A DNA stretch of 64,000 nucleotides, taken from positions 86,978 through 150,977 of the forward strand of contig JAEUHH010000120.1 of assembly GCA_016795505.1 (NCBI GenBank), given 5' to 3'. The DNA is from Verrucomicrobiales bacterium (GTDB taxonomy: Bacteria > Verrucomicrobiota > Verrucomicrobiia > Verrucomicrobiales > DEV007). Position numbers and translations under genes: made by a program. A model generated the notes under the pieces. It saw only the letters and a list, made by a program, of their open reading frames with translations. It did not search any database and was not told where the DNA came from. Shown in pieces: positions 38,849 to 41,047 of the stretch. The first letter of the stretch is position 1; each line of letters begins with the position of its first letter.

Positions 38849-39124
38849 GGCTGGATGGTGGGAAGGGCGAGGTTTGCCGGGCGGGAACGGTAGCGTAACT
38901 TGGGCCAAATGAAACCGGGAAAGGAGCGGCAATGATGGGAAACGTCAGTGGGTTCCCTACGTGACCCGGAGAGGTGATCCGGGCTTGCGAGTTGCAAGGG
39001 GAAGATGGACCTTTTCGCCCTTCGCTGAAGCGGTCCCGAAATGTCGGGAATGGTCCGGAGAAGGATGGCTTCAGTCACGGGTGGAGGGAAGTCGCCCTTT
39101 ACCGGTTGGTTGGCTGGTCGGCAC

Positions 39125-39138
39125 GTTCCACGTGGAAC
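39125..39138. promoter_or_regulatory. parS: parS-like site upstream of mnmG
   Basis: GTTCCACGTGGAAC, a perfect 14-bp palindrome matching the general chromosomal parS pattern (GTTnCACGTGnAAC) bound by ParB. It lies 17 bases before the mnmG start codon, in a 5' region otherwise without obvious structure. Confidence 0.8.
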
Positions 39139-39154
39139 ATTTCGAGAATCTTCG

Positions 39155-41047
39155 ATGTTTGTTTATCCGAAACATTATGATGTCCTCGTGATCGGGGCGG
39201 GTCATGCCGGCTGCGAGGCGGCTCTCGCGGCGGCGCGATTGGGTTGTTCGGTGGCGGTCCTCTCGCAGAATCTCGACACCATCGCGCAGATGTCCTGCAA
39301 CCCGGCCATTGGGGGATTGGCAAAAGGGCACATGGTCCGGGAGATCGACGCCCTCGGCGGTGCGATGGGTCTGAATACGGATGCGACGGGCATTCAGTTT
39401 CGGATGCTGAATGCCGGGAAAGGACCATCGGTCCGGGCACCCCGGGCGCAGTGTGACAAGAAGGCCTATCAATTCCGCATGAAGGCCCTGCTGGAGTCGC
39501 AGGAGGGTCTCGATCTGCATCAGGGAAATGTGGCGCGACTCCTGATCGAGGGCGACGCGGTCGCGGGGGCGGAGACGGGTCTCGGAATGTGTTTCCAGGC
39601 GAAAGCGGTGGTCGTGACCACGGGGACCTTCATGCGCGGCCTGATGCATGTCGGTCTGCAAAATCAGCAGGGTGGTCGCATGGGTGATACGATTTCCACC
39701 CTGAGCGACCACCTGCGGGAATTGGGATTCACGGTCGATCGATTCAAGACCGGTACACCCTGCCGTTTGAATGGCCGATCGATCGACTTTTCCCGCTGCG
39801 AGCTTCAGGGCGGCGATGAGCCGGCACCGCCATTTTCTTTCCTGCGTGATACGCTGAAGGCGGACCGGGACGACATCCACACCCTGAACCCCTGGGGCGA
39901 CCCGATGTTCCACGTGGAACAAATGCCCTGCTGGATCACCTACACGAACTCGCGCACCCACGACATCATCCGGGGCAATCTGGACAAATCGCCGATGTAT
40001 TGCGGAAGGATCGAGGGGATCGGCCCCCGCTATTGCCCCTCCATCGAGGACAAAGTGGTGCGATTTGCCGACAAGGAGCGCCACCAGATTTTCCTGGAGC
40101 CGGAGGGCCGGCACACCCGCGAGTTTTACGTGAACGGAGTGTCGACCAGCCTGCCCTACGAAGTGCAGTACGATTTCATCCGGTCGATCCCCGGTCTCGG
40201 GCAGGCGGAGATCATCCGGCCCGGCTACGCGGTGGAATATGACTACTGCGATCCAACCCAACTTTTTCCGACCTTGGAAACGAAGCGGGTGCCGGGTCTG
40301 TATTTCGCCGGCCAGATCAATGGCACCTCGGGATACGAAGAGGCTGCCGGACAGGGGCTCGTCGCCGGGGCGAATGCGGCGCTGAAAGTGCTGGGTGCGC
40401 CGGAATTCATCCTCGGGAGAGAGGAGGCCTACATCGGGGTGATGATCGATGATCTCGTGACCAAGGGAACGACGGAGCCGTATCGCATGTTCACCTCGCG
40501 GGCGGAATACCGGCTGCTCCTCCGGCAGGATAATGCCGACCTCCGTCTCACGGAGAAGGGTGCGGCGGCCGGTCTGGTGTCTGGTGACCGCCTAGCTGCG
40601 GTCCGGGACAAAGCCGGCCGTCTGGAGGAGGCGCTCCGTTTTGTGAACCGCACCCTCCGGGAGGGCATCACCCTCGCGAAGTGGCTCCGTCGTCCGGAAG
40701 CGGGATGGCGGCAGTTGGAGGAGTCCTTCACGGAGACTTTTGTGGAAAGCATCTGGGATCTGGTCGAAATCGAGGTGAAGCACGAGGGCTATCTGCGTTG
40801 CCAACACGACATGGTGGAGCGAACCGCCCGGCTCGAGCACAAAGCCATTCCCGACTGGATCGATTATCCCTCGGTCCGGGGTCTGAAACGGGAAGCCCAA
40901 ATGAAGCTCGACCGAATCCGTCCCCAAACCCTCGGTCAAGCGGGTCGGATCAGTGGCATCACGCCGGCGGATATGGCGCTGCTCGCCGTGTGGATCGAAC
41001 GTGGCACCACCGGGAAGCCGGTGCGGGTGGAAGAGCCGGAGTCTTGA
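39155..41047 (+). CDS. mnmG: tRNA uridine-5-carboxymethylaminomethyl modification enzyme MnmG
   Basis: 630 residues from the ATG at 39155. FAD-binding [19 protein letters not shown]; the MnmG signature [51 protein letters not shown]-terminal helical domain ending near [12 protein letters not shown]. With MnmE it installs carboxymethylaminomethyl groups at the wobble uridine of several tRNAs. I chose this start because it gives the family-length N-terminus; further upstream the frame runs through the parS-like site. A second parS-like palindrome lies inside the gene and encodes MFHVEQ. mnmE, rsmG and parAB are not adjacent. Confidence 0.95.
39906..39921. promoter_or_regulatory. parS: parS-like site inside mnmG
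   Basis: TGTTCCACGTGGAACA, a perfect 16-bp palindrome identical to the parS consensus core, within the codons for MFHVEQ of MnmG. It is about 780 bases from the first site and shares the same central GTTCCACGTGGAAC. Confidence 0.85.

Follow-up and report, generated by a model that had tools for sequence, protein, structure and literature searches.

Predicted parS sites upstream of and within mnmG in a Verrucomicrobiales bacterium, and the conservation of the internal site in related genomes

The palindromes at mnmG and their copies in the genome

The stretch of DNA analysed here (the window, 64,000 nucleotides) covers positions 86978-150977 of contig C3 in a draft genome of 6,547,602 bases in 120 contigs. 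At 39155..41047 on the plus strand it carries mnmG (gidA), which encodes a tRNA uridine-34 carboxymethylaminomethyl synthesis enzyme of 630 aa (NCBIfam TIGR00136, 787 bits, cut-off 525; relatives of known structure PDB 3cp2, 3ces and 2zxh). The nearest named relatives of the protein are from Verrucomicrobiota, mostly titled Verrucomicrobiales, with 66-73% identity. Two palindromes without strand polarity accompany the gene. Site 1 (CGTTCCACGTGGAACA as a 16-mer, 39124..39139) ends 15 bp before the mnmG start codon, its 14-letter word GTTCCACGTGGAAC occupying 39125-39138, and is flanked on the other side by a pyruvate-dehydrogenase-like gene on the minus strand (named by eye). Site 2 (TGTTCCACGTGGAACA, 39906..39921) lies in frame within mnmG, at codons 251-256, and is read MFHVEQ. 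The first-pass annotation had reported two parS-like palindromes at 39125-39138 and 39906-39921, one of them in coding sequence, and both were found at exactly those positions. Compared with the 16-bp parS palindrome TGTTYCACGTGRAACA, site 2 is exact and perfectly palindromic, while site 1 is off by one outer base. Site 1 is outside mnmG if translation starts at ATG 39155, to which the alignments with homologues point; the longest open reading frame (ATG 39041) would include it.

The window contained five matches to the palindrome at up to three mismatches: the two exact ones and three with 3 mismatches each (3.26 expected from shuffles). In the whole source genome GTTYCACGTGRAAC had two exact copies, namely sites 1 and 2, which are 782 bp apart, and the reversed control had one copy. 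By arithmetic about 0.02 occurrences of a given 14-mer are expected in such a genome, so two copies at this distance are not due to chance. The genome-wide count of the 16-mer that had been proposed as a check thus revealed few and clustered copies, as is typical of parS, and no even scatter: both exact ones are at mnmG. With up to two mismatches the 16-mer was found in three places, and with up to three in 22, compared with 11 for the reversed control. The third place at two mismatches, C54:53089, was dropped as a candidate site, since one or two such matches are expected by chance (again by arithmetic).

Site 2 is part of a variable linker of MnmG (residues 232-256; 39848..39922, plus strand) that was delimited by alignment to 3cp2 and is a net 17 residues longer than in the E. 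coli enzyme. In this alignment the 17 residues absent from E. coli MnmG stand directly before site 2. Residues 228-258 were 14-18 residues shorter in all 70 genes examined from other lineages, and were not shortened in any of ten Verrucomicrobiota loci. An AlphaFold2 model of the protein (mean pLDDT 88) assigned no secondary structure to residues 234-258, with block pLDDT values of 67-71 in the linker and below 50 at 249-252. The linker is thus modelled as a low-confidence coil, as expected for a flexible loop, and it is probably because of this flexibility that it tolerates the word.

Conservation of the sites in the order and the phylum

Of 141 genomes from the order, 129 contained GTTYCACGTGRAAC, with one to four copies in 127 and five and seven copies in the other two; the reversed control occurred in 12 of the 141, one copy each. 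MnmG was matched in 136 of these genomes, source genome included. For the main counts genomes were chosen by MnmG match from a kinship sample, which gave 98 further mnmG regions (1.52 Mb); 37 were left out (35 from genera g15 and g20). The ten loci nearest to the window are biased towards the site (the seed patterns included PMFHVEQM) and some duplicate sampled genomes; nine of the ten have the site and one, L035, has lost it. The internal site at codons 251-256 was found in 92 of the 98 regions at up to two mismatches, 81 of them having the exact 14-bp core, and the word occupies identical mnmG codons across five families. An upstream site between -10 and -350 was found, with up to two mismatches, in 84 regions (exact core in 65), all of which also have the internal site. 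In some regions mnmG contains additional sites, with 7 exact ones at nt 571 and, at nt 1582, 12 exact ones or 15 with up to two mismatches. Altogether the 98 regions contained 180 cores in the Y/R form. Of these, 166 are inside mnmG or immediately before it, 11 are elsewhere in the 4 kb that follow the start of the gene, and 3 are farther off. The plain form GTTCCACGTGGAAC occurred 178 times in the 1.52 Mb, and 200 permuted palindromes averaged 0.005 with a maximum of 1. The genome-wide counts and the permuted palindromes together rule out a chance origin of the sites.

Genus g15, which is probably Akkermansia, comprised 23 genomes of 2.2-3.5 Mb, four of them among the 98 regions. The exact core stood at codons 251-256 in none of the 23. 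In 13 of the 23 the exact word was found only near nt 1582-1589 of mnmG, in 8 it lay away from mnmG (on another contig, or about 29 kb off in G030) and in 2 there was none. The 16 left-out genomes of g20, for which the place of parS was not listed, do not enter the counts for the order. In two loci of g15 (L207 and L208, from G038 and G072) parS is gone from mnmG and now adjoins an argS-like gene (named by eye), and seven sites were counted at L208 when two mismatches were allowed, two of the seven reading LFHVEQ in another frame. A member of the source genome's own family (L173, G019) has eight parS-like sites clustered between mnmG nt 751 and a point about 3.7 kb past the start of the gene, and no upstream site. 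In genus g20 (L135, L143, L131, L133 and others) the upstream site is regularly GTTCCACATGGAAC, and CACATG is found in the internal site of genera g5 and g3. In every pair of sites one member seems to stay nearer to the canonical form.

In a set of 115 genomes from the phylum (completeness 90% or more; 16 belong to the order), the pattern was present in 70 and the reversed control in 5; 45 genomes were without an exact pattern. MnmG was searched in 56 genomes outside the order, mostly picked for carrying the word, and in 46 of these the word was in the MnmG linker. Thirty loci were cut out, and 28 had the exact core in the linker; the other two, from G170 and G193, had one mismatch there and no exact copy anywhere in the genome. 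In six more genomes the word was placed by coordinates at nt 713-761 of mnmG, and in another 12 the coordinates put it no more than 267 nt ahead of the residue at which the MnmG match continues, inside an enlarged linker. G223 and G213 have parS on a contig other than that of mnmG. Six of the 56 are unplaced, three whose places were not listed (G182, G173, G210) and three with no MnmG match (G163, G175, G144). Nine of the 30 linkers read had two sites with at most one mismatch, and by coordinates G211 and G219 have three. In most the word is read xFHVEQ or xFHVEH, but it is translated as VPRGT in G165 and at the second site of G224, and as SSTWN in G161. The surrounding linker sequence varies between families, so it is the word that is the shared feature. 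In L210 (G170), from a genome of the class that measures 0.9 Mb and in which neither ParB nor DnaA was matched, the MnmG linker still has the near-parS sequence GTTTCACGTGAAGC.

Outside the class, total MnmG length relative to the window's MnmG had a median of +13 residues in 17 genomes with parS and of -1 in 39 without an exact parS in MnmG (Mann-Whitney p 7e-8, kinship ignored; split or absent matches were excluded, G223 with its parS elsewhere was counted as 'without', and the location of the extra residues is not resolvable from total lengths). This is a hint that parS-bearing genomes outside the class have a longer MnmG. Within the class the lengths with and without parS were not separated.

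Beyond the phylum, bacteria of the Desulfuromonadales type resemble the source genome in having parS shortly before mnmG, 27-119 bp away in L039, L040, L041, L042, L043, L046 and L055 and at -307 in L045. Their MnmG, however, is without the long linker and has no site there. L041 and L043 have an exact parS at mnmG nt 1583, where family f2 of the order has its third internal site.

Partition genes and the position of the replication origin

The source genome has one ParB, encoded by a 302-aa frame on contig C42 (L016:982-1890). The protein matched solved chains of ParB, Spo0J and Noc, the best being a Noc chain; it passed the NCBIfam parB_part cut-off (198 bits) and remained under that of Noc (246 versus 315 bits). 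Passages of Jalal et al. 2020 (PMC7383237) give R173 and G201 as residues that ParB conserves, Q173 and R201 as their counterparts in Noc, and Q162, G170, K171, S172, N178 and R204 as further contacts shared by the two. Aligned by eye in this register (LKQEEIAQRVGKSRATVSN ... LLTTGHAKAI), the source ParB has Q162, G170, K171, S172, R173, N178 and G201, with K for R204. A search for a parB gene, the absence of which would have spoken against the first-pass annotation, returned one, and it has the recognition residues of the parS type. Two results speak against Noc and nucleoid occlusion at NBS sites: Q173 and R201 are absent, R and G being there, and the score with the Noc model is under the cut-off.

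The frames beside parB are glutaredoxin-like and M28 peptidase-like (both by eye), not parA. The best ParA candidate is an AAA_31 match at C38:22787 (186 bits, 314-aa frame), which is presumably the partner of ParB. DnaA is encoded on C88. A parAB operon beside parS is usual for ParABS systems, although it does not define them. In the source genome there is no such operon at the sites, parB being on C42, the parA candidate on C38 and mnmG on C3. The relatives offer the same picture and bear out the view that parAB has been displaced. Among 21 one-contig genomes a ParA candidate was present in 20; the exception, G170, is without a ParB, DnaA or ParA match. In each of the other 20 the best matches to parA and parB were more than 10 kb apart, mnmG was within 110 kb of dnaA in 4 (G176, G202, G208, G211) and it was within 100 kb of parB in 1 (G202); these figures use the best family match per genome, several genomes have weaker extra matches so that misassignment is possible, and 11 of the 20 lengths are rounded.

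Proximity of the segment to oriC had also been suggested. GC skew was measured in closed relatives, from ten 20-kb samples round mnmG in each of G103, G100, G056 and G010 and ten 10-kb samples in G217, a spacing that places mnmG only to within a few percent of the genome. The cut at mnmG was the best of ten for a turn from minus to plus skew in G103, G056, G010 and G217; in G103 the skew was already positive at the -2% point. In G100 the mnmG cut ranked third, with the best at +6% of the genome, and the strand-corrected third-position T-A skew turned at mnmG. Exact label permutations gave 7, 19, 1 and 1 of 252 for G103, G100, G056 and G010. In these five relatives dnaA, parA and parB were 13-48% of the genome away from mnmG, and in G217 all three were at 46-47%, which is the opposite side of the chromosome. 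The turn of the skew at or near mnmG in all five closed relatives thus favours an origin close by, but no cluster of DnaA boxes was found near mnmG in the window or in the relatives examined, and oriC itself was not located. None of the outcomes named beforehand as refuting the first-pass annotation was seen in these analyses. DnaA-box-like words with at most one mismatch are rarer in the window (positions 1-64000) than expected, with 1 against 5.9 from shuffles. The skew of the window itself changes from plus to minus near 42 kb; in this draft genome the change probably reflects gene direction. By extension from the relatives, the origin of the source genome would also be near mnmG. In Methylacidiphilum, according to the accessible parts of two genome papers, the distances between dnaA and the origin placed by GC skew are 250 nt and about 6.6 kb, so displacement of dnaA does not extend to the whole phylum.

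Interpretation and comparison with known partition systems

We consider it highly probable that the palindromes are chromosomal parS sites near the origin at which ParB is predicted to load, and that the one within mnmG has been kept as DNA in many families. By analogy, the single ParB would bind the two sites and load there as a CTP-dependent clamp, spread over the adjoining DNA and recruit ParA and SMC, which are encoded far away, and the newly copied origin region would be moved first. The steps of loading, spreading and recruitment are taken from other bacteria, as set out in parts of two reviews (PMC7333895, PMC7022226). The peptide FHVEQ would then be a by-product of a centromere sequence.

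The converse, that FHVEQ is a functional MnmG motif of the phylum and the palindrome a by-product of protein conservation, is scarcely credible, even though the amino acids are well conserved in the order (F 100%, H 94%, V 87%, E 96% and Q 99% of 99 sequences, window included). In sequences keeping the amino acid, codons 252-256 are TTC CAC GTG GAA CAA in 98, 96, 99, 99 and 91%, respectively. At the other mnmG positions where F, H, V, E or Q is kept in at least 80% (12 F, 6 H, 13 V, 20 E and 14 Q), the top codon accounts for no more than 84, 82, 65, 73 and 83%, so the synonymous positions of the word are frozen more than at any of these; elsewhere in mnmG GAA makes up 46% of E codons and CAA 30% of Q codons. 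Moreover, the six fetched regions without the internal site read FRIRQ (two), FRMEQ (two), FRMKQ and FAPQQ, and five of them have an exact parS elsewhere in or near mnmG, G067 having none. The peptide therefore drifts where the DNA word is lost while the enzyme gene stays, and codon use and losses together indicate that the DNA word and not the peptide is conserved. Relatives also carry the identical word in two other reading frames, and the upstream site, which is outside the gene, is conserved as well.

It is likewise very improbable that the sites are operators of another mnmG regulator, or Noc-type sites, unrelated to segregation. One site does lie just before the mnmG start codon, and the ParB sequence also gives matches to the Noc model and to Noc chains. 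However, operators would not be expected within the gene, twice in one linker or, as in some genomes, downstream of mnmG, and the R173 and G201 of ParB together with its score below the Noc cut-off do not fit Noc. A more serious, though still rather unlikely, alternative is that the main role of the predicted ParB sites is to load SMC condensin and to organise the DNA around the origin, and that ParA drives little segregation. The separation of the best parA and parB matches by more than 10 kb in every one of the 20 one-contig genomes agrees with this alternative, but a ParA candidate is nearly always present, and ParB retains the N-terminal LGRGLDALI motif, which we take to be the part that contacts ParA. 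Also in its favour, in Hi-C work on 12 gut strains including A. muciniphila, origin parS clusters drive folding, according to the excerpted text of the study (PMC10197239).

Beyond the order, the reading of the palindromes as parS sites can be extended, with somewhat better than even confidence, to much of the Verrucomicrobiota. In this reading the MnmG loop would have been retained and enlarged, and in some cases duplicated, to accommodate one to three parS words. The centromere would then be embedded in a protein, with the segregation machinery dictating part of the sequence of a housekeeping enzyme. mnmG and parS would mark the origin, and dnaA, parA and parB would have moved elsewhere, in one genome as far as the other side of the chromosome.

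Like the ParABS systems of Bacillus subtilis, Pseudomonas aeruginosa and Caulobacter, the sites described here are 16-bp palindromes with a CACGTG core, in few clustered copies that are probably close to the origin. A parS site in coding sequence is not new, since 9 of 10 predicted parS sites of P. aeruginosa are most likely in coding sequences (as stated in available passages of PMC4368675). Unlike in the classic systems, however, mnmG holds the word at the same codons in five families and in the same linker in other classes, relatives have tandem parS sites in one protein linker, and parA, parB and often dnaA are far from the sites. The accessible text of the Hi-C study of gut bacteria (PMC10197239) describes a search for parS as TGTTTCACGTGAAACA with two mismatches, and reports parS at the origin in strains that include A. 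muciniphila (one of the 12), the origin not necessarily being at dnaA; the departing strains are not named in that text, and mnmG, a coding location and phylum-wide conservation are not mentioned there. A search of the open-licence literature, which had the 2007 parS survey of Livny et al. outside its scope, returned no report of parS in mnmG of the phylum. Within the same scope there was no account of a single gene that keeps the site throughout a phylum, or of parA, parB and dnaA scattered round it.

The predicted sites would provide a sequence mark for the replication origin in a phylum that has few experimental tools and where dnaA can mislead. They also offer a clear case in which the residues of an unrelated housekeeping enzyme are shaped by a predicted DNA-binding site. 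The findings suggest that ParA, ParB and parS remain in use although their genes are no longer together, and for these genomes the picture of parAB beside parS at the origin would therefore fail.
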